Part shown: one piece after another, positions 12,181 through 26,945 of the stretch | Layout: every line of letters begins with the position of its first letter | Numbering within the stretch: the first letter of the stretch is position 1 | Assembly: GCF_008629695.1 (NCBI RefSeq) | Contig: NZ_VWSH01000002.1 | Span: 93,410 to 157,409 of the forward strand | Reading direction: 5' to 3' | DNA from: Taibaiella lutea | GTDB taxonomy: Bacteria; Bacteroidota; Bacteroidia; Chitinophagales; Chitinophagaceae | DNA length: 64,000 bases | Made by a program: the position numbers and the translations under genes | The notes under the pieces: generated by a model | What the model was told of the DNA's origin: nothing | Database searches by the model: none | The model's input: the letters and a program-made list of their open reading frames with translations, nothing else

Positions 12181-13938
12181 TTATCTCTTTATAAACTTTT
12201 GTGTGTATTTACGGTTAGTTTGAGCGTCGGCAATGGTAATGAGGTAAATACCGGAAGACATATTTGTCAGGTCGATCGTATGCCTCTCTTCTTTTACATC
12301 GCTTTTATAGAATACCTGACCCAATGCATTTGTAACAATGCAGTTATATCCTTTCTTGTTTGCAGTTGCAAGATTGCTTCTTATAGTGATAAAGCCGTTA
12401 GTCGGATTGGGGTATAGCTGAAATACCTGCTGCGCCGACAGTTCGTCGATTCCTGTTGTACAATTCACTTTCAGTTGTTGGGTCTGGATGGTGGTATTTC
12501 CGTGCCCGTCGTCATAATGCCATTGAACAGTGTAATTGCCCGCAACGGTAAAATGTAAGGAATCGGTAGTGCCCATCAGGAGGCCTGCGCAATTATCTGT
12601 TGCCGTCGGCGCCGTCAGTGTATAAGGACAGTTTACGTTTAAGGCTTCCAGATTATTGTCGGCAACGGGCGCTATTGTATCATCAATAATTACAGTTTGT
12701 GTAGCGGTAGATGAAAGGTAACCGTTGGTAAAGGTCCATGTAATGGTATGGCTGCCCTGATTATGAAGGTTGAGGGAATCGTTTGTGGTGCCTGCTATCG
12801 GTAAACTTCCTGCCGTAGCAACAGGAGCGGTAATTGTGGTGTCGCACTGTGCAAAAACAGTTTGTAATGCTGCGGTATCAATGACAGGTGCAATGTAAGT
12901 ATGCAGTTCCAGTTCGTTGCCAATCCTTCCGGCAACGCTGCCGGTATCTATCTGCGTAAAAGTGGTTCCATCAACAATTTCATACTTCGTGGGCTCGGCA
13001 TAGTTGCCTGCGGTTGCAACTGCAAAATCTCCGGTATAGGGATCTACGTCAAATGATTTTCCGTAAGCGAATGAAAAGCTGTTGCCGGGTAATGTACTTG
13101 TATATATTAACGGAACGGGAACAACAGGACTGGCGATGTTGTAAGCATATACATTCTTGCCGGACAGGAAATACAGCTTATTGACAGCTAACCTGAGCTG
13201 TGCCGCATTGCTGATGCCGGTTAAGCTGACAGGGGCGTTCAGCAGATCGTTATTGGATGGCTCAAGCTTAACCAATGCCGAAATGCCTGATACTTTGCCC
13301 AGCAACCAGATGCAGTTATTGGCCGCGTCGTATTGCATGCCTGCTATAGAACCGATGCCCGGTAGGATGCTTGCTACCGCCTTGTTTGCGGCAGTATCTA
13401 TCTTGACAATTTTACTGCCTATGGCAACATACATAAAGCCGTTTGCGGCTGCCATATAGCTTGCATAGGAACTTATCATATTAGCGGTATCGGTAACAGG
13501 GGTCATCGTATTATTGACAAGGTCGATTAGCTGAATGATGTTGCCGGTTGCCTGACTTACATAGCCTTTTGTATTGCTTGCTTTGCCAAGACATTGATAA
13601 CCTGCGCCGCCTGTAAAGGTCTTGATGGTGTCGAAAGAAGGATAGGCTACTATGGATAACTTGTAAGGGGAGGAGGCACCGCCTTTTCCGCATAACACAG
13701 CCCTGTTGCCAAAGGTGCCGTAATCCTGCAATACGTCGATACCGAGCGAGCTGTTGGCCGTCTGAAAAAGCCCTGCGCTGAATACATGTGTTGAGCCGCC
13801 GGTGCGGGAAGCTTTGAATACATCACCGTTTGGTGATCCGAAATTACCTTCTGCAACCACATAAAGGTCGTAAGGTTTTTGCGCCATGGTAACATGCGCG
13901 GCAAGGAGGACTGAGAAGCCCAGTAAAAGTTTTTTCAT
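12181..13938 (-). CDS. Cobalamin-regulated T9SS-sorted propeller protein (BtuG-like candidate)
   Basis: A 585-residue secreted protein. Residues 1-19 are a signal peptide ending TMA before Q20. Residues about 22-350 start with YDLYVVAEGNFGS and repeat propeller-like strands (VLYVA, IVKIDTA, NCIWLLG). This pattern is typical of DUF5074/YncE-like surface propellers, the group that includes the Bacteroides B12-binding protein BtuG. Residues about 360-490 form two HYR/Ig-like beta domains. The last about 75 residues are a T9SS type A sorting domain (FQLYPNPTNGFITI). A cobalamin riboswitch lies 110 bases upstream on the same strand, so expression should fall when B12 is plentiful. No btuB is next to it. 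B12 capture is inferred from riboswitch plus fold. BtuG itself is a lipoprotein, so T9SS anchoring is a difference. Confidence 0.78.
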   Translation of the reverse strand: MKKLLLGFSVLLAAHVTMAQKPYDLYVVAEGNFGSPNGDVFKASRTGGSTHVFSAGLFQTANSSLGIDVLQDYGTFGNRAVLCGKGGASSPYKLSIVAYPSFDTIKTFTGGAGYQCLGKASNTKGYVSQATGNIIQLIDLVNNTMTPVTDTANMISSYASYMAAANGFMYVAIGSKIVKIDTAANKAVASILPGIGSIAGMQYDAANNCIWLLGKVSGISALVKLEPSNNDLLNAPVSLTGISNAAQLRLAVNKLYFLSGKNVYAYNIASPVVPVPLIYTSTLPGNSFSFAYGKSFDVDPYTGDFAVATAGNYAEPTKYEIVDGTTFTQIDTGSVAGRIGNELELHTYIAPVIDTAALQTVFAQCDTTITAPVATAGSLPIAGTTNDSLNLHNQGSHTITWTFTNGYLSSTATQTVIIDDTIAPVADNNLEALNVNCPYTLTAPTATDNCAGLLMGTTDSLHFTVAGNYTVQWHYDDGHGNTTIQTQQLKVNCTTGIDELSAQQVFQLYPNPTNGFITIRSNLATANKKGYNCIVTNALGQVFYKSDVKEERHTIDLTNMSSGIYLITIADAQTNRKYTQKFIKR

Positions 13939-14049
13939 TTCCTTTTGAGGAATTTAAAAATGATAAAAAAGGACGAAAAATTAAGTGCAGGTATGCAATG
14001 GAAAGGCTTAACTGCATTTATGTTTTTTCTCCGAAAACAAAATACTAAT
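13939..14049 (-). promoter_or_regulatory. Possible expression platform of the cobalamin riboswitch
   Basis: Directly after the aptamer, 14007-14018 can pair with 14047-14057 (11 bp, one bulge), tying up the 3' edge of the aptamer. No T-run follows on the minus strand, so control of translation or transcript stability is more likely than termination. The remainder is an AT-rich leader. Confidence 0.4.
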
Positions 14050-14210
14050 GCGTTAAGGCAGGTCTCCTGGCTTGGTCCGGTATATTTCGCCTTCCCATCA
14101 AAAGATGACAGTGGCGTGTTGAAATATACTTATAGAACCTTACAGTTGCGGGAACAGCTCCCGATTTAAACGGGATTCCCTTTTAATCCTCCCGAGGGAG
14201 GAACCATAAG
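14050..14210 (-). ncRNA. Cobalamin (B12) riboswitch aptamer
   Basis: Read on the minus strand, the conserved elements occur in the right order: a GGGAA block with a CCCG/CGGG stem, CCGCAACTGTAAG, GCCACTG, GGGAAGGCG, and the closing B12 box AGCCAGGAGACCTGCC (14057-14072). These are the diagnostic blocks of the adenosylcobalamin riboswitch. It stands 110 bases upstream of the propeller gene starting at 13938 and has no other gene to control on that strand. Confidence 0.95.
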
Positions 14211-14236
14211 CGGCGCAAAGATAAGGGGAAATACTT

Positions 14237-14580
14237 AAGCGCTTCGCAACGTCCCCTACGGGAGACGATGCGGGGGCAGAAACGATATTGTGGTTGGTGA
14301 GACACCAACCACGGCGAAATGAGGTAGGTTAGTTAAGCGTTTCGCAGGTCCCCTGCGGGAGACGATGCGGGGATAAATGTTGTTGGTGAAAACACCAACA
14401 ACGGCGGATAGGTGCTATTACGGTTGCTGAGACCCTGACCACGGCGGGATGAGGCAGGTTAGTTAAGCGTTTCGCAAGGTCCCTGCGGGAGATGATGCAG
14501 GGACAGATGTTGTTGGTGAAAGTACTAACAACGGCGGAAAGGTGCTATTACGGTCGCGGAGATACTGACCACGTCGAATG
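14237..14580. repeat. 130-bp tandem duplication of type A + type B hairpins
   Basis: Two direct copies of a 130-bp unit (about 14317-14446 and 14447-14576) share about 86% identity by eye. Each contains one type A hairpin and two type B hairpins. A further type A (14237-14277) and type B (14291-14314) pair precedes them. Several differences preserve stem pairing, for example CACCAA to TACTAA opposite TTGGTG through G-T pairs, and GGTT to GGTC opposite GACC. Confidence 0.75.
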
Positions 14581-14625
14581 GAAACTACAGCCGAAGCTCT
14601 GCACAGTCAAGGTTTTAACTATCTC

Positions 14626-14657
14626 CAAAAATAATACAGAATTGATCTCTTAATTTG
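14626..14657 (+). promoter_or_regulatory. Regulon motif site 1, before the response regulator
   Basis: Two 11-bp tandem half-sites, CAAAAATAATA and CAGAATTGATC (14626-14647), are followed by a Bacteroidota-like -7 element ending TTTG (14654-14657). GAAT and TTTG are separated by 11 bases. The arrangement suits an OmpR/PhoB-type activator and suggests autoregulation. Confidence 0.55.
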
Positions 14658-14672
14658 CAGTTTTATTTTGAT

Positions 14673-15347
14673 ATGAAAGTTCTGATAATCGAAGATGAAA
14701 GGGAACTTGCAGATAGTATTATAACGTATCTGAGTTCCGAACAGTTTATCTGCGAGCCTGCAAAAGATTTTAATGCAGCAATGGAGAAGATTCACTTAAA
14801 TGACTATTCCTGCATCGTTCTTGACCTGACGTTGCCCAATGGCAGCGGGCTTGATATTTTAAGAGAACTGAAAAAGCAACAAAAAGAAGACGGGGTATTG
14901 ATTATAAGTGCGAGAAATTCCATTGATGATAAAATTGAAGGGCTCAACCTGGGGGCGGATGATTACCTGGCCAAGCCTTTTCATCTTGCAGAGCTGGGTG
15001 CAAGGGTGGCGGCCATTATCAGAAGAAAGTCTTTTGGCGGGCAAAATATAATCGCTATTGATCATCTTACGCTTGACCTGAGTGACAAGACATTAAAGCA
15101 TGACGGCCAGCCTGTAAGCCTGACCCGAAAGGAGTATGAATTGCTGCTCTATTTTATCAGCAACAAAAACAGGGTGGTTACCAAGGAGTCTATTGTGGAG
15201 CATCTCTGGGGAGATGATATTGATATGGCAGACAGTTACGACTTCATATATTCGCATATAAAGAACCTGCGGAAAAAACTGATACAGGCGGGCTGTCCCG
15301 ACTACATCAAGGCCGTTTACGGTATGGGTTACAAATTCAGTATTTAA
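14673..15347 (+). CDS. OmpR-family response regulator
   Basis: A 224-residue two-component regulator. The receiver domain starts MKVLIIEDE with acidic pocket residues, the phospho-acceptor Asp in CIVLDLTLPNGSG, and the conserved Lys in LAKPFH. The C-terminal winged helix contains LTRKEYELLLYF and VVTKESIVEHLWG and ends in VYGMGYKFSI, typical of OmpR/PhoB DNA-binding domains. The ATG at 14673 is preferred. An upstream in-frame TTG at 14655 lies inside the TTTG promoter core and would be upstream of the transcript start. The kinase gene follows after 10 bases. A tandem 11-bp half-site precedes this gene and recurs before four other genes in the next 12 kb, making this protein the likely binder. 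Confidence 0.93.
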   Translation: MKVLIIEDERELADSIITYLSSEQFICEPAKDFNAAMEKIHLNDYSCIVLDLTLPNGSGLDILRELKKQQKEDGVLIISARNSIDDKIEGLNLGADDYLAKPFHLAELGARVAAIIRRKSFGGQNIIAIDHLTLDLSDKTLKHDGQPVSLTRKEYELLLYFISNKNRVVTKESIVEHLWGDDIDMADSYDFIYSHIKNLRKKLIQAGCPDYIKAVYGMGYKFSI

Positions 15348-15357
15348 CCTTGCAATC

Positions 15358-16626
15358 ATGAAGCTATTAAGTAAATACAACCGGATAAATATTATTTTGA
15401 TGTCGCTGTTGTTTCTCTGCTCTGGAGCTGCTACGTTTATCATGGTCAGGGGCTTGCTCATTCATGAATTGGATGAGGTGCTGGTGGATTACAAAGACCG
15501 GATAGAGCGGTATATAGATTTGAAGGGGACACTTCCTGAAAGCGATGCAATAGATGAAACGATTATTCATTATGATATAACAGCGCATAAGGTAAAGGAC
15601 AAGTTTTCGTTTACGGAGTTGCGCGAGCCGGATGAAGATAAGATGCACACTTTTCGCCAGCTTGTGTTTACGAAGCGAAACGGGGATGTAATTTATAAGT
15701 TTACAATTGCAAAGCCGCTGGAGGGCACGAGAATGCTCACGAGGATTATAGCCGCCACAACAGTCGTGCTTTTATTATTTGTTATTTTGAGTTCGGTATT
15801 GCTTAACAGGATAGTCCTGAGAAAAATCTGGGCGCCGTTTTATGAAACCATCCATAAACTAAAGGGCATTAAAATAAGCAAGGGAGACAGGCTGACTTTA
15901 TCTGAGACCAATATTGATGAATTCCGTTTTTTAAACAACACGCTTGAACAGACTATAAATTTTGCAGAGCAGGAATACAGGATTCTTAAAGAGTTCACAG
16001 AGAATGCCTCTCATGAAATGCAGACGCCGCTTGCGATTGTAAGATCGAAATTAGATCTGGTTATACAACAGGAGGGGCTTTCTGATACACAGGCGGATGC
16101 GATTAAAAGTGCATACTCGGGAATTACGCGTCTGGATAAATTGAACCGTTCTCTTTTATTGCTTGCAAAGATTGAGAACAAGCAATTTCAGGAAACGTCC
16201 ATGCTGAATCTGAAAACCAAGGTTGATGAAAAGCTGGAGCAGCTTAAGGAGATAATGCAGGAATCTTCTGTAAAAGTAAAGAGCGAGCTTACAGACGCGG
16301 TCATTTCCTGTAATGAAATGTTACTGGAAATTCTGCTGAACAACCTTGTCAGCAATGCGGTGCGACATAATGCAAGGGACGGGGAGATCAATATTTCCCT
16401 TAAGCCCGGTGTATTCCGGATTTCAAACACCGGAAGCCCGGTGAGCCTGGATAAAGAAAGAATATTCCGTCGTTTTTATAAAGATGAACAGCATTCCACG
16501 CAGCATGGGCTGGGGCTGGCTATTATCAAACAGATTGCGGAACAATCGGGTATTCAGGTTTCTTACGATTGGGAAAACCATCAGCATGTTTTTACATTGG
16601 AATGGGAAACGCCTTTACTAACGTAG
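15358..16626 (+). CDS. Membrane sensor histidine kinase
   Basis: A 422-residue kinase paired with the upstream OmpR regulator. A first membrane helix (about 10-32) and a second (about 128-150) flank a roughly 95-residue periplasmic sensing region rich in charged residues. A short linker or degenerate HAMP follows. The HisKA domain has phospho-acceptor His219 in ASHEMQTPLAIV. The ATPase domain has N box LLNNLVSNAVRHN and G box HGLGLAIIKQ. The periplasmic domain has no ligand motif I recognise. The start at 15358 gives a clean positively charged N-terminus. Signal sensed is unknown. Co-location with efflux and PAP2 genes hints at envelope or membrane stress. Confidence 0.92.
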   Translation: MKLLSKYNRINIILMSLLFLCSGAATFIMVRGLLIHELDEVLVDYKDRIERYIDLKGTLPESDAIDETIIHYDITAHKVKDKFSFTELREPDEDKMHTFRQLVFTKRNGDVIYKFTIAKPLEGTRMLTRIIAATTVVLLLFVILSSVLLNRIVLRKIWAPFYETIHKLKGIKISKGDRLTLSETNIDEFRFLNNTLEQTINFAEQEYRILKEFTENASHEMQTPLAIVRSKLDLVIQQEGLSDTQADAIKSAYSGITRLDKLNRSLLLLAKIENKQFQETSMLNLKTKVDEKLEQLKEIMQESSVKVKSELTDAVISCNEMLLEILLNNLVSNAVRHNARDGEINISLKPGVFRISNTGSPVSLDKERIFRRFYKDEQHSTQHGLGLAIIKQIAEQSGIQVSYDWENHQHVFTLEWETPLLT

Positions 16627-16629
16627 CTA

Positions 16630-16661
16630 CAGAAATTATCCAGAATTGAGCAATAGGTTTG
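16630..16661 (+). promoter_or_regulatory. Regulon motif site 2, before the PAP2 gene
   Basis: Half-sites CAGAAATTATC and CAGAATTGAGC lie in direct 11-bp register (16630-16651). They are followed by a perfect TAnnTTTG element, TAGGTTTG (16654-16661), 17 bases before the ATG at 16678. GAAT-N11-TTTG spacing is exact. Confidence 0.65.
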
Positions 16662-16677
16662 TTGTTTAATACGACCG

Positions 16678-17412
16678 ATGAAGTATCTTCTTTGTTTCCT
16701 CTTTTCCTTTACCGCCACTGTTTCTGATGCGCAATCTGCTTTGAACAATACAGATAGCCTTGGCAACGCTGATAAAAGTGCGCTTAAGGTAGATTCGTTA
16801 TTTAAGCCGCTCATGACGCCGTTTTACCTGAAACAGGTATATGTGCCTGCTGCCCTGATGACAACGGGCATTGTTTCCACAACAATATTTACGGCATCAA
16901 TAAAATTCAGGATAGCAGAAGAGCGTAACGAGCATTTTTCAAATTTCCATACGAGTATTGATAATTACTTACAGTACGCGCCCATTCCTATTGCTTACGG
17001 ACTGGATGCTTTTGGCTTTAAATCCAAAAATGATATTCTTAACAGGAGCCTGATACTTTTAAAGGGCGAGGCGCTGATGTTTGTGACGGTAAACATTCTG
17101 AAGTACACAACCAATGAACTTAGGCCCGATGCGGCAAATATACATTCGTTCCCTTCAGGTCATACGGCACAGGCATTTGCCGCCGCTACTTTTCTAAGTG
17201 AAGAATACAAGGATAAATACCCCTGGATTTCATATATGGCTTACGGAATGGCCGGTACTACAGGACTGCTGAGAATAGCAAATAACAAGCATTTTGTCGG
17301 AGATGTATTAATGGGCGCAGGCATGGGTATACTCTCCATGAAATTGTCTTACTGGACGCATCAATACCGGTGGGGAAAAAGGCATCATAAGAGCGGAATT
17401 AAATCTTCGTAA
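16678..17412 (+). CDS. PAP2-family phosphatase, periplasmic
   Basis: A 244-residue protein with a signal peptide (residues 1-19, ending SDA before Q). The PAP2 superfamily catalytic motifs are complete: KYTTNELRP (K-x6-RP), PSGHT with His162, and a third motif ending NKHFVGD with His205 and Asp209. Such enzymes remove phosphate from membrane lipids or isoprenoid phosphates, for example lipid A or undecaprenyl pyrophosphate. Hydrophobic segments after residue 50 indicate membrane embedding. It has its own promoter with the same regulator half-sites as the two-component genes, so it is a probable target of that system. This fits remodelling of envelope lipids. Substrate cannot be told. Confidence 0.9.
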   Translation: MKYLLCFLFSFTATVSDAQSALNNTDSLGNADKSALKVDSLFKPLMTPFYLKQVYVPAALMTTGIVSTTIFTASIKFRIAEERNEHFSNFHTSIDNYLQYAPIPIAYGLDAFGFKSKNDILNRSLILLKGEALMFVTVNILKYTTNELRPDAANIHSFPSGHTAQAFAAATFLSEEYKDKYPWISYMAYGMAGTTGLLRIANNKHFVGDVLMGAGMGILSMKLSYWTHQYRWGKRHHKSGIKSS

Positions 17413-17436
17413 ATTTAACTGCTAATCTATTGGTCT

Positions 17437-17850
17437 ATGTGGAAATACTATGCATTACTATCCGCTTTATTTGCAGCCCTGACTGCCATACTTGCGAAAA
17501 TGGGTGTTAAGGGAATCAATGGGAATGTTGCCACGGCCATCCGTACTGTTGTAATACTGTTTGTGGCCTGGGGCCTGGTTATTTTCAGCGGTGAGTTTAA
17601 AGAAATCAAGACACTCAGCAGAAGCAATATTGTTTTCCTGGTCTTGTCGGGTATTGCAACGGGCCTGTCATGGATATTTTATTTCAAGGCACTGGAAACA
17701 GGCAGCGTATCCAAAGTTGCGCCCATCGATAAACTCAGCGTAGCAATTGCAATGGGTCTCGCTTTTCTTATATTGAAAGAGCCTTTAGAGCTTAAAACCA
17801 TTATAGGCGGAGTATTAATTATAGCCGGCTCGATTGTCATAATTCTTTAA
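17437..17850 (+). CDS. EamA-type small transporter, half-size
   Basis: A 137-residue integral membrane protein with about five helices and one EamA domain. GLSWIFYFKALETG, then KVAPIDKLSV and a final helix pattern GGVLIIAGSIVIIL are characteristic. Full-length drug/metabolite exporters have two EamA repeats, so this is a half-size form that would need to dimerise. This size class is well known in bacteria. It follows the PAP2 gene after 24 bases and has no motif-bearing promoter of its own, so it is likely co-transcribed. Substrate unknown. Confidence 0.85.
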   Translation: MWKYYALLSALFAALTAILAKMGVKGINGNVATAIRTVVILFVAWGLVIFSGEFKEIKTLSRSNIVFLVLSGIATGLSWIFYFKALETGSVSKVAPIDKLSVAIAMGLAFLILKEPLELKTIIGGVLIIAGSIVIIL

Positions 17851-17880
17851 CCAATCATTTAATTCCACACTTCATCTCTC

Positions 17881-17912
17881 CAAAAAATATTCAGAATGTG
17901 GCAATAGGTTTG
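17881..17912 (+). promoter_or_regulatory. Regulon motif site 3, before the TonB receptor-like gene
   Basis: CAAAAAATATT and CAGAATGTGGC in tandem (17881-17902), then TAGGTTTG (17905-17912). The core AATAGGTTTG is identical to site 2. Only 10 bases separate it from the ATG at 17923; a second ATG at 17935 gives a more usual leader. Confidence 0.65.
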
Positions 17913-17922
17913 CAGCTTAATT

Positions 17923-20385
17923 ATGTCAAACCAGATGAAACCGCTGTCTATTGTAGCTCTGCTTCTTTTTGCCACCTTTATTTGCAATGCCCAGTTTCGT
18001 ATTTCAGGGAAAGTGCTTGATTTAAACACAGGAAAGCCCGTTGATTACGCTACTATTTCTATTTCAGAACAAGTTACAAACAAAATTATAGACGGTACTA
18101 CTACTGATTCTTCGGGATTGTTTACAATAACCGGTCTTCCGAAAGGCGTTTTCAAAATAGCTGCGTCTTTTCTGGGATACAATACCACTCAACTGGACAG
18201 TGTTTTTTTGCCGGACGGCAACAAGACTAATATTACGCTGCCTGTAATTTATTTAAAAAGCAATAGCCGCGAATTGACGGAAGTCACCATTACCGGAGCC
18301 GCACCTGTAGTGGAAAACAGGATTGATAAAATTGTTTACAATACTGCCAATGACGTAACTGCGCAGGGCGGTGTGGCGCTTGATGTGCTGAAGAAAGTGC
18401 CTCAGGTGTCGGTAGATGCAGATGGAAATGTTGAGCTGCAGGGAAGCTCGGGTATAAGGTTTCTCATAAACGGCAAACCTTCAAGCATTTTTGGTAACAG
18501 CCTCGCTGATGCCTTGTCGTCCATACCTGCAAGCCAGATTAAGAGCATTGAAGCCATTACAAGCCCGGGCGCAAAGTATGATGCGCAGGGTACGGGAGGT
18601 ATAATCAATATCATACTCAAGGATAATAAAGCAAAAGGGGTAAATGGCAATGTCAACCTGTCTGCCGGAACGAGAACGGAAAATGCATCCGTAAACCTGA
18701 ATATGCGTTCGGGCAATTTTGGTATGAATGCCTTTTTCAGTGGTAATGCCACACTGAAGTCCAAATCACCGGGATTGCAGGATCGTAAATCCTATAATCC
18801 TTCCGACGGGACAACCACAAGATTGATTCAGGATAATTACAATGACATAAAGAGAAATGGTTATCAATCCGGTTTTGGCTTCGACTGGAATGTATCAAAA
18901 GCCGACATCGTAACGGGATCATTTGAATACAGCAATTTCAGCAATAACCGCAGCGGTCTGACGCAGCAACAGGAAACTGTAACAGATAACCTGAGTAATA
19001 CGGTGTCAGATGTGCAAAGCCTGCGCAATTCCGGCAGCAGCATGTCCAGCCATTCTCTGGACTGGAGCCTTGATTACAAACATAAGTTCAGGAGGGAAGG
19101 GGAAGAGATTGATTTTAATTACAATTCCAGTTTCGGGCGGCCTGTTCTCCAATATAGCCAGGACCAGACAATGGAAGGCGCTTTAAACCCGTTTACAGGT
19201 ACTTCGAGTTATAATACCGGTACCGATAACCAGACGAATATATCAGCAGATTATGTTCGTCCGATTGGTAAAAAAGCAACATTTGAAGCAGGTGTAAAAA
19301 GCAATTTCCAGCATATCAACAGCCTTTCAAATGTCAGCGTGCTGTCACCCTCCAATGGTGAATATGTTGATGATTACCTTCAGTCGTACGGGCTGGATTA
19401 TAAAATGAATGTTTATGCCGGGTATGTTGCCGCATCCTTTTCGATGTTTGACTTTATGGATATAAAAGCAGGTATGCGGATAGAACATACGGATGTCATG
19501 CTTGACTACAACAACACACATATACCTTCTTACAACACTTACTTCCCGTCTGTTTTATTGTCGCATAATATTAATGATAAGCAATCTGTAAAGTTCGCAT
19601 ACGCACACCGCATAGAGCGTCCTGAATATGATGAATTAAATCCCTTCCTTAACCTGAGTGACCCTTACAACATTACAACGGGTAATCCGTTGCTTAAGCC
19701 CGAGATTGGCGATAATATGGAACTGGGTTACAGCCGTTCCTTTGATAATGGCGCTAACTTTTATCTTGCTTTGTCGGAAAGGATAAACAGCAATGACATA
19801 AAGCCTTACACTGCATTTTATCCTGACTTTGAAGTGGGCGACTCCGTATATCAGAATGTTTCTATTACAAACAAAAGAAACATTGGCACAGAATATAATT
19901 CAGGACTCATTCTGAGCGGCAGCACGCCTGTTGTGAAGGGCCTGAACTTACGCGGAAACCTGATGCTTTTTCACCGGCATATAGTCAATACGCTTGATGA
20001 AAGCATCACCAATTCACTAAGCCTGCGTCTGAACATGAATGTAAGCTATGAGATAACGGATGGCTTTATAGCTGAAGCATTCGGAAATTATCGTTCTCCT
20101 TTCAACAGCGTTCAGGGCAAAAGTCCTCAGATGCTCACTTACACATTCGCTGTACGGAAACAGTTATGGCATAAAAACGCCAGTTTAGGCATTACGGCTA
20201 CAAACATATTCAGTAACTATATCAACCAAGTCACAACTGTTACAACTGATACTTATGACTCTTACAGCCTCAGGCAGATTCCCATGCGTTCTGTCGGCCT
20301 GACATTCACTTATAAGTTCGGCAAGCTGGAATTTAATAAGGATAAACATAAAGACGGATACCCCGATATGCCTTCTGACAACTAA
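17923..20385 (+). CDS. TonB receptor-like outer-membrane barrel protein
   Basis: An 820-residue outer-membrane protein. A signal peptide comes first, with the alternative start M5 (ATG 17935) giving a more typical one. A CarboxypepD_reg-like beta domain follows (about 24-110, RISGKVLDLNTGKPVDYATI). A plug domain is next (about 130-230, TAQGGVALDVLKKVPQVSVDADG then GTGGIINIILK). The long barrel of the OMP_b-brl_3 type contains the family signature YAHRIERPEYDELNPF. These proteins resemble TonB-dependent receptors but many lack a known ligand. Its promoter shares the two-component half-sites, placing it in the same regulon as PAP2. The closing strand is followed by a hydrophilic tail (NKDKHKDGYPDMPSDN), so the protein does not end in the usual aromatic residue. 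Confidence 0.87.
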   Translation: MSNQMKPLSIVALLLFATFICNAQFRISGKVLDLNTGKPVDYATISISEQVTNKIIDGTTTDSSGLFTITGLPKGVFKIAASFLGYNTTQLDSVFLPDGNKTNITLPVIYLKSNSRELTEVTITGAAPVVENRIDKIVYNTANDVTAQGGVALDVLKKVPQVSVDADGNVELQGSSGIRFLINGKPSSIFGNSLADALSSIPASQIKSIEAITSPGAKYDAQGTGGIINIILKDNKAKGVNGNVNLSAGTRTENASVNLNMRSGNFGMNAFFSGNATLKSKSPGLQDRKSYNPSDGTTTRLIQDNYNDIKRNGYQSGFGFDWNVSKADIVTGSFEYSNFSNNRSGLTQQQETVTDNLSNTVSDVQSLRNSGSSMSSHSLDWSLDYKHKFRREGEEIDFNYNSSFGRPVLQYSQDQTMEGALNPFTGTSSYNTGTDNQTNISADYVRPIGKKATFEAGVKSNFQHINSLSNVSVLSPSNGEYVDDYLQSYGLDYKMNVYAGYVAASFSMFDFMDIKAGMRIEHTDVMLDYNNTHIPSYNTYFPSVLLSHNINDKQSVKFAYAHRIERPEYDELNPFLNLSDPYNITTGNPLLKPEIGDNMELGYSRSFDNGANFYLALSERINSNDIKPYTAFYPDFEVGDSVYQNVSITNKRNIGTEYNSGLILSGSTPVVKGLNLRGNLMLFHRHIVNTLDESITNSLSLRLNMNVSYEITDGFIAEAFGNYRSPFNSVQGKSPQMLTYTFAVRKQLWHKNASLGITATNIFSNYINQVTTVTTDTYDSYSLRQIPMRSVGLTFTYKFGKLEFNKDKHKDGYPDMPSDN

Positions 20386-20424
20386 AAATATTTTACATTT
20401 TAAATAGATCGGTTCTTAAGAAAG

Positions 20425-21021
20425 ATGGATAACGAGCAAGTAAGGGTGTTGTTAGCGGATGTAGAACAGACGGTTTCTATAATGTTTGAACAATATGCAC
20501 CTGACTATCTGATATATCATAACATAGATCATACCCGTGGTGTGGTAGCGCATGCAAAAGAAATTGCAGCTAATTATGATCTGAGTTTGGAGGAATTTTT
20601 CACATTAGTAGCTGCTGCATGGTTTCATGATACGGGACAAATATTCTCGGCCCCGCAACGACATGAAGAAGAAAGCATAAAGATTGCCAATCTTTATTTT
20701 TCCGGACAAAAATCTATTCCTGTTAATCTGATAACGGCAATTGATCATTGCATCCTTGCAACCAGGATGCCTCAGCGCCCTCATACGCTTATAGAAGAAA
20801 TACTTTGTGATGCAGACTTGTATCATCTCGGAACAGCATCATTCTTTGCTGTTGACAAAGCTGTAAAGGAAGAAGCTATGCTGCGTGGCTTAGACGTAAG
20901 TAACTGGGAACAGGGCACATTGAAGTTAATGCAGTCGCATCATTTCCACACTGCTTACTGCCAGGATAAGCTAAATGCGGGTAAGCAAAACAACCTTTTA
21001 ATGTTACTGAAGCGGCAGTAA
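20425..21021 (+). CDS. HD-domain phosphohydrolase
   Basis: A 198-residue soluble protein with the HD metal-binding set: His36 in YHNIDHTRGV, His68-Asp69 in AAWFHDTG, a further His in APQRHEEES, and a late Asp in LCDADLYHLG. HD enzymes hydrolyse nucleotides or cyclic nucleotides, and some act as (p)ppGpp hydrolases. The compact size and the H..HD..D order fit small stand-alone HD phosphohydrolases. It follows the TonB receptor gene by 39 bases without a recognisable promoter motif, so probably shares that transcript. Substrate is not predictable. Confidence 0.83.
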   Translation: MDNEQVRVLLADVEQTVSIMFEQYAPDYLIYHNIDHTRGVVAHAKEIAANYDLSLEEFFTLVAAAWFHDTGQIFSAPQRHEEESIKIANLYFSGQKSIPVNLITAIDHCILATRMPQRPHTLIEEILCDADLYHLGTASFFAVDKAVKEEAMLRGLDVSNWEQGTLKLMQSHHFHTAYCQDKLNAGKQNNLLMLLKRQ

Positions 21022-21060
21022 TAATTATTGTTTTTATTAACAATAAACTGCTTTATAATC

Positions 21061-21092
21061 CAAAGAATATTCAGAATCAGGGAGCAGCTTTG
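21061..21092 (+). promoter_or_regulatory. Regulon motif site 4, before the PepSY-like gene
   Basis: CAAAGAATATT and CAGAATCAGGG (21061-21082) closely match site 3, followed by CAGCTTTG with TTTG at 21089-21092. GAAT-N11-TTTG is kept although the -7 element is less perfect. The gene starts at 21125. Confidence 0.6.
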
Positions 21093-21124
21093 CCTTATTA
21101 TTTCACGCTACAAAAATAAAAGAA

Positions 21125-21562
21125 ATGAAAAAGATTATCGGAATGCTTGGCATCACCCTAAGCCTGACATTGGTTATCCATGCCCAGGAAAAGAAACATG
21201 CTCAGGTAAAACCTACGCAAGAAGCAAAGGCCGGATTTGAAAGTAAATTTCCCGGCGCTACAAATGTAAAATGGGAGAAAGAGGACGACATGCTTGAAGT
21301 GAATTTTAAACAAGGTGGCAAGGAAATGTCTGCACTGTTTGAAACTAACGGTACCTTAACAGAAACGGAAACAGAGATTGCCGTTACAGCTTTACCGGCA
21401 AGTGCTTCAGCTTATATGAAGCAACATTATGCAGGCAAAAAAGTTAAAGAAGCAGCAAAGATTGTAAAAGCGGACGGCAGCGTGAACTACGAAGCTGAGG
21501 TTGAGAAGAAGGATGTTTTATTTGATGCAGATGGCAAATTCATTAAAGAAGCTAAGGATTAA
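21125..21562 (+). CDS. PepSY-like (BLIP-fold) periplasmic protein
   Basis: A 145-residue exported protein. Its signal peptide is residues 1-20 (LTLVIHA before Q). Two PepSY-like repeats follow: FESKFPGATNVKWEKEDD with its continuation to about residue 80, and a second copy from about 95 (YMKQHYAGKKVKEAAKI then YEAEVEKKDVLFDADGKF). This two-repeat form is the DUF2874/PepSY-like family common in Bacteroidota. Related PepSY domains have been linked to protease inhibition or metal/haem handling. Its own promoter carries the regulator half-sites. A terminator hairpin follows at 21572, before the RND efflux operon. Role is unknown; a periplasmic chaperone or sensor partner for the two-component system is a reasonable guess only. 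Confidence 0.8.
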   Translation: MKKIIGMLGITLSLTLVIHAQEKKHAQVKPTQEAKAGFESKFPGATNVKWEKEDDMLEVNFKQGGKEMSALFETNGTLTETETEIAVTALPASASAYMKQHYAGKKVKEAAKIVKADGSVNYEAEVEKKDVLFDADGKFIKEAKD

Positions 21563-21571
21563 TATAACCAT

Positions 21572-21601
21572 GCCAAAGGCTGTAATGTTGCAGCCTTTGG
21601 C
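21572..21601 (+). terminator. Hairpin between PepSY-like gene and efflux operon
   Basis: A perfect 11-bp stem, 21572-21582 with 21591-21601, with an 8-nt loop and a short T-rich tail. It starts 9 bases after the stop and ends 24 bases before the TolC-like start, so it may attenuate rather than fully stop transcription into the efflux genes. Confidence 0.6.
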
Positions 21602-21625
21602 TATTTCAGATTCAATCTTATAAAA

Positions 21626-22858
21626 ATGAAATGGCTGCTGATCTCCTGTTGTGTGTTGACTGTTTTTACGGCTACGGCTCAGGATAATAATCTTCAATTT
21701 TACCTTGATTCCGGTTTAGAGGCAAGTCCGTTGCTTAAAGATTACCAGAATCAGATAAGCGCAAATGCAATTGACAGCGCCAAGATAAGAGCCGGATATA
21801 AACCGCAGGTTATTGCCAGCAGCACGAACTCATATGCACCGGTTATTAAAGGCTGGGGATACGATGAGGCTATTACCAACGGAAGAAATATCAATGCCGT
21901 AGTCGGGGTGAATAAAGTTTTTGCCGGACGTAAAAATTTAGAAAGCCAGTTTGAAAGCATCAGTCTTTTGAATCAGGGAATTGAGAATAACAAAAAGATG
22001 ACGGAGCAGGAGCTGAAGCGTACAATAACGGCACAATATATTACCGTCTATGGGGACAAGCAACAGTGCGATTTCCTTAATGAGAGCTTCCTGTTATTGA
22101 AAGATGAAGACGAAGTACTGAAGAAGCTTACTCAAAACAATGTTTACCGGCAAACAGACTATCTCACGTTTCTGGTTACCTTACAGCAACAGGATATAGC
22201 CAGAAGCCAGTCTGCTATTCAATTGCAGAACGACCTGGCTACACTGAATTATCTTTGCGGTATTGTTGATACTGCGCAGGTTAATCTTATAGAACCTGAT
22301 ATTTCCTTAACGCAATATCCTGCACGGGAACAATCTGTTTTCTTCAGGCAATACCGGATTGACAGCCTTTCGCTGATTAATAAGAGATTGCTTATTGACT
22401 TTAATTACAAGCCGAAACTCAGTGCATTTGCAGATGCCGGATATAATTCTTCGCTTGCCATAACGCCATACAAGAATTTCGGCTACAATTTCGGATTTAC
22501 CTTAAGTATACCTATCTATGACGGACATCAGCGGAAAATGGAATACAGGAAACTGGATCTGGCAGAACAGACAAGAAGCAATTATCTTGACTTTTTCAGC
22601 CGCCAATATAATCAGCAGATGATCCAATACAGGCAACAACTTCGTTCGACGGAAGAGTTAATATTTCAGATGAGTGATCAGATAAAATATTCCGAAGCAT
22701 TAATAAAAGCGCACACAAAATTGCTGTCAACCGGAGACGTGAAAATTGCTGATCTGGTTATCGCTATTAATAATTACCTGACTATCAGAAATCAACTTAC
22801 GCAATATAAAATAGCAAGGTGGCAGATTATCAATCAAATCAATTATTGGAACAGGTAA
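21626..22858 (+). CDS. TolC-family outer-membrane efflux protein
   Basis: A 410-residue outer-membrane channel subunit. A signal peptide (1-19, TATA before Q) precedes two helical-hairpin repeats typical of TolC/OEP. The barrel strand segment (KPKLSAFADAGYNSSLAI, then GFTLSIPIYDGHQRKMEYRK) carries the OEP-family IPIYDG motif. It is shorter than E. coli TolC but normal for Bacteroidota efflux operons. The adaptor gene follows after 9 bases and the pump after another 14, so all three are one operon. It forms the exit duct for the RND pump. Substrate unknown. Confidence 0.87.
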   Translation: MKWLLISCCVLTVFTATAQDNNLQFYLDSGLEASPLLKDYQNQISANAIDSAKIRAGYKPQVIASSTNSYAPVIKGWGYDEAITNGRNINAVVGVNKVFAGRKNLESQFESISLLNQGIENNKKMTEQELKRTITAQYITVYGDKQQCDFLNESFLLLKDEDEVLKKLTQNNVYRQTDYLTFLVTLQQQDIARSQSAIQLQNDLATLNYLCGIVDTAQVNLIEPDISLTQYPAREQSVFFRQYRIDSLSLINKRLLIDFNYKPKLSAFADAGYNSSLAITPYKNFGYNFGFTLSIPIYDGHQRKMEYRKLDLAEQTRSNYLDFFSRQYNQQMIQYRQQLRSTEELIFQMSDQIKYSEALIKAHTKLLSTGDVKIADLVIAINNYLTIRNQLTQYKIARWQIINQINYWNR

Positions 22859-22867
22859 CACGATTTT

Positions 22868-23800
22868 ATGTTTAAAAGACAAACTCAATTACTGCTTACA
22901 TTGATAATTTGCGCATGGCTCACTTCCTGTGCCGGCAAAGCTGAAGAAGACAATGCTGCTGTCGGCCAGGTGGAAACACCTGTCACTGTAGCGCACATCA
23001 GCCGTGATAGTATGAGCGAATATATTGAGATCAATGCAACATCTGTATTTCTATTAAAGAATTTTGTAAAAGCCAATGCAAACGGATACCTGCGTTCCTC
23101 CAATATTCGTTTGGGGCAACACGTGGGCAATGGTCAGGTGCTCTTTACGGTTACTACCAAAGAAGCACAGAGCCTCGGCAATACACTTAATAAGATTGAT
23201 TCTTCGTTCAGGTTCAACGGCACAAATAGCATAAGAGCAGGCGGGAACGGCTACGTTACGCAACTGGATCATCAAACAGGCGATTATGTACAGGACGGAG
23301 AGCAGCTTGCTGTTATCAGTAATCAGAACAGTTTTGCTTTTGTGATGAATGCACCTTACGAATTGCATACATTGATTTCACGACAAAAAGAAGTAAGCGT
23401 TGTTTTGCCGGATGGTGAATCTATACAAGGGAAAATAACTTCTGCTATGCCGCAAATGGATTCCGCTTCGCAAACGGAGCGTCTTGTAATAAAAGTGTCT
23501 GCCGATCATTCCATTCCTGAAAATCTTATCGCCAAAGTGCGCCTACTTAAAAACGGCAAGCCAAATGCGGTTAGTGTTCCCAAGGCCGCAGTACTTACAG
23601 ATGAAACACAAAGCGAATTCTGGATTATGAAGCTATCAGATGATCATACGGCTGTAAAAATTCCGGTTACAAAAGGCATGGAAACAGCCGATAAAGTTGA
23701 AATACTGACACCTGCACTTACGGAAAGGGAACGGGTACTTATCAGCGGCAATTACGGACTGGAAGATACGGCAAGAGTAAAAATCATTCATCAGAACTGA
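22868..23800 (+). CDS. RND efflux periplasmic adaptor, short-hairpin lipoprotein
   Basis: A 310-residue membrane fusion protein. The lipobox LTSC (Cys about 21) makes it a lipoprotein anchored in the inner membrane. The lipoyl half-motifs are NANGYLRSSNIRLGQHV (about 75) and GGNGYVTQLDHQTGDYV (about 125). Only about 20-25 residues separate the halves, so the usual long alpha-helical hairpin that reaches TolC is essentially missing. Beta-barrel and membrane-proximal domains follow (KVRLLKNGKPNAVSVPKAAV). It sits between the TolC and pump genes. The family is clear. The missing hairpin is the oddity and implies contact with the outer-membrane channel through the lipoyl domains or the pump. Confidence 0.87.
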   Translation: MFKRQTQLLLTLIICAWLTSCAGKAEEDNAAVGQVETPVTVAHISRDSMSEYIEINATSVFLLKNFVKANANGYLRSSNIRLGQHVGNGQVLFTVTTKEAQSLGNTLNKIDSSFRFNGTNSIRAGGNGYVTQLDHQTGDYVQDGEQLAVISNQNSFAFVMNAPYELHTLISRQKEVSVVLPDGESIQGKITSAMPQMDSASQTERLVIKVSADHSIPENLIAKVRLLKNGKPNAVSVPKAAVLTDETQSEFWIMKLSDDHTAVKIPVTKGMETADKVEILTPALTERERVLISGNYGLEDTARVKIIHQN

Positions 23801-23814
23801 AAACGCGCGATATC

Positions 23815-26800
23815 GTGAAGAACTTTTTTGTGTCTTATAAAAGCCCATTGTCAGTGGTACTGGCGCTTATTATTGCGGGTGGCATGTTTGCTTACAGCAA
23901 ATTGCAGACGGCTTTATTTCCGGAAATTACATTCCCTAAAATAAAAATCATCGCCGATGCCGGACTGCAGCCGGTCGATAAAATGATGGTGACGGTAACA
24001 AAGCCTCTGGAGAATGCGATAAAGCAGATTCCCGACCTGCAACTAATCAGAAGTACAACCAGCAAAGGTAGCTGCGAGATATCAGCCTATATAGATTGGA
24101 ATGCAAATATTGATCTCAGCCTTCAGCGAATACAGGCAAAGATTGCGGATGTCAAAAACCAGTTGCCACCGGAAGCGCAGATTACGGTTGAGAAGATGAA
24201 CCCTTCGATACTTCCGGTAATGGGCTATACGGTTGAAAGCCATAATAAATCGCCTATCGAGATGAAAATGCTTGCTGACTATACCATCAAGCCATTTCTG
24301 TCGCAGGTTGCAGGCGTATCGGAAGTAAGGGTGAGCGGAGGACGTACCAAAGAGTACTGGCTGGAATTGAATGTACAAAAGATGAGCACATTGGGCATTA
24401 CGCCGGAAATGGTAAGCAATGCGCTTGCACAAGCCAATTTCATAAAATCCAACGGTTATCTCTCAGAATATAAATACATGTATCTTACCGTTACGGACGC
24501 AACTGTAAAGACACTTGATGACCTGAAGCAGGTTGTTATCAGGAACGATGGCAAACGCATTGTTACAGCACAGGATATAGCTGAAGTACGTGTAAATGAA
24601 AACCTTGAATTTACCAAGATCAATGCTAATGGTAAAGATGCTTTGCTGATTGCCATTATTAAACAACCCAATGCCAATCTCGTACAGCTTTCTTCCGACA
24701 TGGAACTGAAAGTAGCAGCACTAAGACAAACTTTGCCTAAAGGCGTAACAATCCAACCCTATTATATTCAGGCCGATTTTGTCAATGATTCTGTCAGAAG
24801 CGTATCCGACAGCTTATGGATAGGACTGGCATTAGCCATTATTGTTGCGGTTATCTTCCTTCGCTCCTTAAAGGCAAGCGCCACTATCCTGATAACCATT
24901 CCGGTTACACTTACGCTTACGCTGATTGTATTATACATCCTCGGATATACTTTAAATATCATGACTCTGGGTGCACTCGCCGCAGCGATTGGTCTTATCA
25001 TTGATGACGCCATTGTGGTAGTGGAACAGATTCACAGGACGCATGAGGAACATCCCGAAGAGCCCACCACAAGTCTTATTCAGAAGGCAATTAAATATCT
25101 GTTTCCGGCTATGGTAGGCTCGTCTGTCAGCACTATTGTTATATTTATTCCCTTTATACTGATGAGCGGGGTAGCCGGAGCCTACTTTAAAGTGATGACC
25201 AGTACGATGATCATTACGCTCTTATGTTCGTTCTTTGTTACCTGGATAGGATTGCCGGTAATTTATCTTTTGCTTACCGGCAAATCGGATAAGCGCTTCC
25301 ATGCTAAGTCGCATGAAGTGAAAAAGCAAAAATGGGTTTCTTTTTTTCTGATGCGTCCGGTAATCAGCCTTGCTTTTGTATTGGTACTGATTTTTTCTGT
25401 TGTGTTTATCCTGCCCAGACTTCAGACGGGCTTCCTGCCTGAAATGGATGAAGGCAGCATTGTGCTGGATTATACATCGCCTCCCGGCACCTCACTTCAG
25501 GAAACAGACAGGATGCTGCGTGAAGTTGAAAAGATTATTCAAAAAATACCGGAAGTGGCTGCTTACTCCAGACGTACCGGCACGCAGATGGGCTTTTTTA
25601 TAACGGAACCTAATAGGGGGGATTATCTTATCCAACTTAAGAAATCGCGCAACAGATCAACAGATGAGGTTACGAGTGATATACGGCAGAGGATCGAATC
25701 GACACAGCCGGCCTTGCGTGTTGACTTTGGTCAGGTGATAGGTGATATGCTGGGAGACCTTATGACATCGGTACAGCCTGTTGAGGTGAAGATATTCGGG
25801 GCAGACAGGCAAAAGTTGCAGGAATTATCCCGGCAGGTAGCACAGGTGATTTCGGATGTAAAGGGTACGGCAGATGTATTTGACGGTATCGTTATTGCAG
25901 GCCCGTCGATAAGTATAGCTCCGGATTACAGCAAACTGGCACAATTCGGTATTACTCCTGCAAATCTTCAAGCGCAAATCCAGACTTCATTAGAAGGGAA
26001 TGTGGCAGGCAGCATTCTGGAAAAAGAACAATTATCTGTCGTGAGAATGGTTTATCCCAATAACCGAAAAACAAGCGTAAAAGATTTGTCGAACCTGCAG
26101 GTATTCTTACCTGATGGAAGACTATATCCTATGTCGGCTCTGGCGAAAATAACTATCAAAAGCGGGGATGCAGAAATAGAACGCGAAGACCTTCAATCTA
26201 TGGGTGTTGTTACTGCGAGGTTGGATAATGCCGATCTTGGAACTGTAATCAAACAGATTCAACAACAGATCGATGAGAAGATAGCATTGCCGGTTGGCTA
26301 CCATATAGCATACGGAGGTGCGTATGCCGAACAACAGCAATCTTTCCATGAATTACTGATTATCCTGCTTTCTTCCTGTCTGCTTGTATTCGGGGTAATC
26401 CTTTTTCTGTTCCGTGATGTGAAAGTCGCGCTCACCATTCTGCTGATATCGGTTCTGGGAATTGCAGGAAGCTATATAGCATTGTTTTTTACAAATACTG
26501 CGCTTAATGTAGGCAGTTATACCGGGCTTATCATGATTGTAGGGATAATAGGGGAGAACGCCATTTTTACTTTTCTGCAATTCAAAGAAGCGATGCTTAC
26601 GCAATCGGTTGACGATGCAGTAGTATATGCTGTTTCCACACGGTTGAGGCCAAAACTTATGACTGCGTTTGGTGCGATTATTGCGCTTCTTCCTTTGGCA
26701 ATGGGAATAGGGGCGGGGGCGCAATTGCATCAACCATTGGCAATAGCTGTAATCGGCGGTTTTATCATAGCCCTACCGCTATTGCTTATTGTGCTGCCTT

Positions 26801-26862
26801 CTGCCCTGAGATTAATCTACAGAAATTCAGGGCCCGGAAAACCGGTACCTGAACAATCATAA
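23815..26862 (+). CDS. RND efflux pump permease
   Basis: A 1015-residue proton-driven RND pump, full length for the AcrB-type fold. Two halves each have one plus five membrane helices and large periplasmic loops. The proton relay pair Asp397-Asp398 lies in GLIIDDAIVVVEQ, as in drug-type (HAE) pumps rather than CusA-type metal pumps. The second half has GLIMIVGIIGENAIFTF and ends in a helix plus a short cytoplasmic tail. The start is the GTG at 23815, because a stop and the end of the adaptor gene lie just upstream and no ATG is available. It forms a tripartite pump with the two preceding genes. Substrates are probably hydrophobic or amphipathic compounds, an inference from family only. Confidence 0.92.
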   Translation: MKNFFVSYKSPLSVVLALIIAGGMFAYSKLQTALFPEITFPKIKIIADAGLQPVDKMMVTVTKPLENAIKQIPDLQLIRSTTSKGSCEISAYIDWNANIDLSLQRIQAKIADVKNQLPPEAQITVEKMNPSILPVMGYTVESHNKSPIEMKMLADYTIKPFLSQVAGVSEVRVSGGRTKEYWLELNVQKMSTLGITPEMVSNALAQANFIKSNGYLSEYKYMYLTVTDATVKTLDDLKQVVIRNDGKRIVTAQDIAEVRVNENLEFTKINANGKDALLIAIIKQPNANLVQLSSDMELKVAALRQTLPKGVTIQPYYIQADFVNDSVRSVSDSLWIGLALAIIVAVIFLRSLKASATILITIPVTLTLTLIVLYILGYTLNIMTLGALAAAIGLIIDDAIVVVEQIHRTHEEHPEEPTTSLIQKAIKYLFPAMVGSSVSTIVIFIPFILMSGVAGAYFKVMTSTMIITLLCSFFVTWIGLPVIYLLLTGKSDKRFHAKSHEVKKQKWVSFFLMRPVISLAFVLVLIFSVVFILPRLQTGFLPEMDEGSIVLDYTSPPGTSLQETDRMLREVEKIIQKIPEVAAYSRRTGTQMGFFITEPNRGDYLIQLKKSRNRSTDEVTSDIRQRIESTQPALRVDFGQVIGDMLGDLMTSVQPVEVKIFGADRQKLQELSRQVAQVISDVKGTADVFDGIVIAGPSISIAPDYSKLAQFGITPANLQAQIQTSLEGNVAGSILEKEQLSVVRMVYPNNRKTSVKDLSNLQVFLPDGRLYPMSALAKITIKSGDAEIEREDLQSMGVVTARLDNADLGTVIKQIQQQIDEKIALPVGYHIAYGGAYAEQQQSFHELLIILLSSCLLVFGVILFLFRDVKVALTILLISVLGIAGSYIALFFTNTALNVGSYTGLIMIVGIIGENAIFTFLQFKEAMLTQSVDDAVVYAVSTRLRPKLMTAFGAIIALLPLAMGIGAGAQLHQPLAIAVIGGFIIALPLLLIVLPSALRLIYRNSGPGKPVPEQS

Positions 26863-26913
26863 TTTCAAATAAACCGGCCGTTTCATTAAATAATTCCGTC
26901 TCTGTATGTCTGA

Positions 26914-26945
26914 TAACAATACATAAGAATTAAAGAATAAGTTTG
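26914..26945 (+). promoter_or_regulatory. Regulon motif site 5 (weak), before the CPA2 antiporter
   Basis: GAAT (26927-26930) and TTTG (26942-26945) are again 11 bases apart, with the AATAAGTTTGCAG core resembling sites 2 and 3. The upstream half-site TAACAATACAT is a poor match. It starts 22 bases before the ATG at 26968. Confidence 0.4.

Follow-up and report, generated by a model that had tools for sequence, protein, structure and literature searches.

In a 64-kb stretch of Taibaiella lutea DNA (the window, i.e., the whole stretch analysed), an OmpR/PhoB-type response regulator (RR) is encoded first in a 12-kb block of genes whose promoters carry a tandem operator with an 11-bp period. We consider it likely, and say so with good confidence, that the RR binds this operator over the -33 element of promoters of the TAnnTTTG type and activates its own operon and three neighbouring ones. 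Judged from the sequence comparisons given below, operator and regulon are real, conserved and of a known kind, and comprise four sites, not five as in the original prediction. Assignment of the RR as the protein binding the operator is strong, and it very probably fills this role.

The RR protein served as query for the collection of loci from 80 relatives, extending up to 10 kb to each side, and the genes therein were labelled by BLAST against the window proteins. De novo motif search with 170 bases from each of 82 RR promoters, all from other species and with the window excluded, yielded CTTCAGAATTn-CTTCAGAATT-n6-TAnnTTT, an 11-bp direct repeat preceding the Bacteroidota -7 box. At a width of 24, its log likelihood was 406 compared with 84-95 in three shuffled sets (block shuffles, 20 starts each versus 40 in the real run). 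The -7 box, TAnnTTTG, is placed at -12 to -5 in PMC9723704. Most information in the matrix is held by the tandem part, whose half-site has a family consensus of approximately (C/A)TnCA(G/A)AATTn and recurs with an 11-bp period. The -7 box stands at a single conserved spacing from the operator, an outcome that an ungapped matrix favours. As expected for an OmpR/PhoB-family regulator, the target promoters are thus preceded by direct repeats with a period of about 11 bp. Note that the loci stem from related species and are not independent of each other, and that training and test loci have genomes in common.

When both strands of the window were scanned with the relatives-trained matrix, four sites proved to be the four best positions, and the fifth-best position scored 11.9. 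When the window was resampled 20 times with a first-order Markov model, the best score per resampling ranged from 7.9 to 18.2. The four sites and a fifth, rejected one are as follows (HK, sensor histidine kinase; OMP, outer-membrane beta-barrel protein):

14623..14656, + strand: site 1, tandem operator and -7 promoter element before RR-HK, matrix score 28.7
16627..16660, + strand: site 2, tandem operator and promoter before PAP2-EamA, matrix score 22.7
17878..17911, + strand: site 3, tandem operator and promoter before OMP-HD, matrix score 19.0
21058..21091, + strand: site 4, tandem operator and promoter before PepSY-TolC-HlyD-RND, matrix score 20.3
26911..26945, + strand: claimed site 5 before CPA2, rejected, matrix score -2.4

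The original prediction had joined all five positions into one regulon on the basis of a shared GAAT-N11-TTTG. Its site coordinates proved exact on re-check, with GAAT at 14639, 16643, 17894, 21074 and 26927 and TTTG 11 bases beyond each. The short pattern occurs seven times in the window, with 5.35 ± 2.16 matches expected and 7 reached in 26 of 100 shuffles; as this is chance level, it carries no weight by itself and was rejected as a diagnostic on its own. The five-site regulon stands for sites 1 to 4, the top four matrix scores in the window, and falls for site 5, which lacks the half-sites and was discarded. Inclusion of CPA2, and with it of ion exchange, is thus unsupported. CPA2 was labelled in none of the 80 relatives' loci, which is weak evidence because these loci end 10 kb from the RR and the window has CPA2 at a distance of 12 kb. 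The claim of two half-sites in direct 11-bp register at four of the sites is borne out by the relatives-trained matrix for sites 1 to 4. As to its wording, the 11-bp repeat holds, while CAAAnAATATT is only the form that the first half takes in this species and differs from the family consensus.

The same operator precedes orthologous genes in the relatives. At a score of at least 15, it was found before 18 of 24 OMP, 18 of 23 PepSY, 11 of 26 TolC and 6 of 19 PAP2 orthologues, all of them gene classes outside the training set of the matrix. With a score of at least 11 instead, the numbers were 18 for OMP, 22/23 for PepSY, 11 for TolC and 6 for PAP2. No site scoring at least 15 was present before orthologues of HK (0/82), HlyD (0/24) or RND (0/27), and 100 column-permuted matrices gave at most one site in any gene class. 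Three of 53 test sites overlapped a training region, on the opposite strand. For EamA and HD, numbers are too small to judge (1/5 each; on the reverse strand 2/5 and 1/5, respectively). RR genes, scanned within 200 bp upstream, had their own site in 48 of 83 cases, the window included. The named loci span Chitinophagales, Cytophagales (Dyadobacter) and Sphingobacteriales (Pedobacter). The original prediction was to fall if matches were as frequent by chance or if orthologous promoters lacked them; the four sites exceed chance in the Markov resamplings and in the genome-wide ranking described next, and recur before the relatives' OMP, PepSY, TolC and PAP2 genes.

A profile built from 68 sites of relatives, with no window sites, was applied to the 4.27-Mb genome. 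Site 2 ranked first (24.3 bits), site 1 second (24.1 bits) and site 3 third (20.0 bits), with site 4 at rank 8 of 23 places (15.1 bits). These 23 places, at E <= 10, were obtained among 150 candidates scored of 4185, and four of them are the known sites. Ten of the 19 extra places were read: four lie inside long same-strand open frames, two inside an opposite-strand open frame, one just upstream of an apparent tRNA gene and three upstream of open frames. The extra places were left out of the regulon because none was tested in relatives, and a genome-wide regulon in this species was not adopted. A loose pattern scan of the genome, allowing two mismatches, gave 28 matches where the reversed pattern had 14, and was dismissed as too loose.

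Of 147 family genomes, 87 have the RR (E <= 1e-70), and 69 of these contain a profile match with E <= 0.01; among the 60 genomes lacking the RR, 5 do (Fisher p = 1e-18). This contrast is partly built in, because some of the genomes that supplied training sites close to RR genes are also among the 147. Of the two scans underlying it, one was limited to 20 scored candidates per genome and the other applied stricter filters. In many of the 87 genomes the RR is only 50-60% identical to that of the window, and some of these have a site directly upstream.

The regulon probably extends further in the relatives. The 1,340,852 bases of their 80 loci contain 142 positions scoring at least 18, compared with 2 in a Markov control. 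Exactly 100 precede labelled genes (RR 47, OMP 18, PepSY 16, TolC 11, PAP2 6, EamA 1, HD 1); among the other 42, 34 have a nearby open frame and 8 do not. The gene downstream of an unlabelled site was taken as the longest open frame whose start lies 20-330 bp beyond the first base of the site, and was named by eye, except for ten that were run against Pfam (eight of them also against NCBIfam). YncE/DUF5074-type propellers with a strong site near the RR were encountered in ten loci, TonB receptors in four and fatty-acid-hydroxylase-type enzymes in three, while Do/DegP-type proteases, a sulfatase-type membrane enzyme and ECF sigma factors occurred in two loci each. The Do/DegP match reached 404.7 bits (cut-off 416.2) and NCBIfam YncE matches stayed far under theirs, so that both names apply at family level. 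The YncE/DUF5074-type propeller, which is not among the labelled genes of the cluster in the window, is a likely regulon member. The types of targets in these loci suggest a role in the cell envelope.

The block in the window contains these features:

14673..15347, + strand: RR, OmpR/PhoB-type (PF00072 1.3e-24, PF00486 6.7e-22)
15358..16626, + strand: HK, NCBIfam PorY family (NF052314 428 bits, cut-off 350), 10 bp after RR
16678..17412, + strand: PAP2 phosphatase (PF01569 3.2e-16)
17437..17850, + strand: short EamA-family transporter, 137 amino acids (PF00892 2.4e-20), 24 bp after PAP2
17923..20385, + strand: OMP, TonB-receptor-like (PF14905 2.5e-80, PF13620)
20425..21021, + strand: HD-domain protein (PF01966 3.5e-5, 24.5 bits, cut-off 22), 39 bp after OMP
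21125..21562, + strand: PepSY-like protein (PF11396 3.6e-7), signal peptide by eye
21572..21601, + strand: hairpin with 13-bp stem in the PepSY-TolC gap, possibly an attenuator or a processing site
21626..22858, + strand: TolC-like outer-membrane efflux protein (PF02321 1.9e-15), 63 bp after PepSY
22868..23800, + strand: HlyD-type periplasmic adaptor (TIGR01730 97.1 bits, cut-off 94.9)
23815..26862, + strand: RND efflux permease (NF033617 500 bits and CusA/CzcA TIGR00914 471 bits, both under cut-off)

The gaps between the genes suggest four operons with one site each, RR-HK, PAP2-EamA, OMP-HD and PepSY-TolC-HlyD-RND. Scans for sigma-70 promoters and terminators remained at chance level. The PAP2 phosphatase is weakly similar to LpxE (30.8 bits, cut-off 177). 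The hairpin between PepSY and TolC has a folding energy of -23.2 kcal/mol (z -4.88), and none of 200 shuffles folded as well. In the same gap of relatives with the same gene order, strong stems were seen in three of four cases (L099, L108 and L134, no shuffle control), two of them with a T-rich tail, and a weak one in L132. The recurrence of strong stems with a sequence different from that in the window suggests a conserved attenuator. Read-through from PepSY into the RND pump genes, by which the original prediction had the RND operon join the regulon, is plausible, although probably reduced by the hairpin. Relatives carry the operator before TolC (11/26) or PepSY, TolC follows PepSY after only 63 bp in the window, and the RND operon probably belongs to the regulon.

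Just upstream of site 1, the intergenic positions 14251-14545 hold a hairpin-rich repeat of 130 bp twice in tandem, the copies being 85% identical. Parts of a 191-base query taken from this region match 22 places in the genome, its own position included, which makes it a REP-like family. Beyond it, a cobalamin riboswitch (RF00174, 121 bits) occupies positions 14040-14223 on the minus strand, before a minus-strand gene (12181-13938) whose product, judged by eye, is of the propeller type and ends in a C-terminal tail of the T9SS type.

For the circuit as a whole, we propose that the HK (15358) phosphorylates the RR (14673) in response to an envelope signal, with envelope damage, a cationic peptide or a metal as candidates. 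An RR dimer would then bind two CTTCAGAATTn half-sites arranged head to tail with an 11-bp period. If the -7 box sits at -12 to -5, the operator would lie at about -39 to -18 from the transcription start, covering the -33 region of sigma-A promoters with a TAnnTTTG box. There the RR most likely acts as an activator in the manner of PhoB or PmrA, and would control all four operons of the block; the presence of site 1 before the RR's own operon points to autoregulation. The hairpin may hold the efflux genes below the level of PepSY. The original proposal of an OmpR/PhoB-type tandem operator, recognized by the regulator encoded first and joining the PAP2, receptor and PepSY operons, is supported.

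Several observations weigh against this interpretation. Thirty-five of the 83 RR genes have no site scoring at least 15 within 200 bp upstream; only ten of them have one farther away, up to 1.6 kb upstream in the same orientation, and 25 have none. Examples of such distant sites are those ahead of an EamA (L072) or PepSY gene (L100, L101) located before the RR. PAP2 orthologues mostly lack the site (13/19), and site 4 is outranked in its own genome by four positions outside the cluster. Sites scoring at least 15 are also present on the reverse strand (RR 11/83, PepSY 2/23, TolC 1/26, PAP2 1/19, in addition to those for EamA and HD), though not for OMP (0/24), HK, HlyD and RND. These likely belong to divergent neighbours, as checked only for the three overlaps. 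A further point is that other Taibaiella genomes contain RRs of only 50-51% identity (L177, G001) that are preceded by the same type of site; in G001, for example, the operator (C28:367010-367046) lies just before an RR starting at 367052. The operator may thus be bound by another OmpR-type regulator or by several paralogues, with the neighbouring RR as just one target. We regard this as improbable, given that the motif follows the RR group over the 147 genomes, that sites are clustered near the RR gene, and that the other four RR matches in the window's own genome (E <= 1e-25) are only 32-34% identical. As RRs of 50-51% identity carry the same site type, the operator, by sequence, is the mark of a wider regulator group and not of a single orthologue. 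Since the same operator type precedes their own genes, paralogous RRs may share targets. In another Taibaiella genome, a paralogous RR (L185) likewise has this operator type before its own gene.

Activation by the RR has also to be weighed against repression, in which the RR would block RNA polymerase at the -33 region until a signal arrives. The overlap of operator and promoter (about -39 to -18 with the box placed as in PMC9723704) is compatible with this. On the other hand, the -7 box keeps one conserved spacing from the operator, subject to the bias of the ungapped matrix mentioned above. Activators such as PhoB use a similar position and tandem form. The PmrA binding mode, as described in PMC3973317 and PMC4660055, argues in the same direction, and we consider repression unlikely, if somewhat less so than binding by other regulators. 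That the pattern is a mere extended sigma-A promoter or a chance similarity in AT-rich DNA fits the chance-level frequency of GAAT-N11-TTTG alone, but is hardly credible: most of the information resides in the tandem part, nothing comparable precedes HK, HlyD or RND, and neither Markov nor column-permuted controls reproduce the pattern.

To our knowledge, few two-component regulons have been mapped in environmental Bacteroidota. The regulon may, rather tentatively, be viewed as a core envelope-defence circuit of this phylum, a counterpart of PmrAB, Cpx and Bae in Chitinophagales, Cytophagales and Sphingobacteriales. It would consist of the regulator group and a CTTCAG-N5-CTTCAG operator fused to TAnnTTTG promoters, would serve PepSY proteins, an RND pump, lipid-acting enzymes, a Do/DegP-type protease, ECF sigma factors and receptors, and PepSY would perhaps feed back on the kinase. 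In the present case, a single regulator and its operator, together with a conserved set of targets, can be read from sequence across three orders, and poorly characterised families (PepSY-like proteins, PF14905 barrels and YncE-like propellers) gain a common control. The signal becomes testable with a few reporter strains, and the system provides an example of an OmpR-type operator fitted to a Bacteroidota promoter.

A description of this operator or regulon was not found among the literature matches listed, a coverage that excludes most subscription journals. PMC10434189 reports iron-responsive PepSY-like genes in Bacteroides. With its receiver and Trans_reg_C domains the RR is a regular member of the OmpR/PhoB family, and its best solved relatives are DrrD (1kgs) and BasR/PmrA (8jo2, 4s04). 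DrrD is a Thermotoga protein. The enterobacterial PmrA/BasR box shares the head-to-tail half-sites and the 11-bp period. PmrA half-sites are CTTAAG/CTTAAT (PMC3973317), and the fourth base is C here instead of A (CTTCAG versus CTTAAG). According to PMC4660055, PmrA contacts bases through Asn188, Val192, His195, Asn196 and Arg210, of which the RR keeps only Asn196 (N198), the others corresponding to D190, S194, K197 and Y216. Its own recognition-helix residues Y193, H195, K197 and N198 are the same in all 83 of the 83 RRs compared. The RR also stays below the equivalog cut-off for PmrA (PRK10643, 178.2 bits versus 330). It therefore probably works in a PmrA-like manner, yet is not PmrA.

Tandem 11-bp repeats replacing the upstream promoter element are likewise typical of the PhoB pho box and OmpR/PhoB-family operators. 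The sequence of the pho box is unrelated to the operator described here, and the promoter is of the Bacteroidota TAnnTTTG type. The HK, in turn, falls into the PorY family of the PorXY system of type IX secretion. PorX carries a PglZ-type output domain, whereas the regulator encoded by the adjacent gene, the only one considered as partner, is a DNA-binding protein of the OmpR type with Response_reg and Trans_reg_C domains only. The RR stays under the BaeR cut-off (129.8 bits versus 380), yet the Do/DegP-type protease, RND efflux, PepSY-like proteins and outer-membrane receptors among the relatives' targets form a set which the Cpx and Bae regulons resemble.

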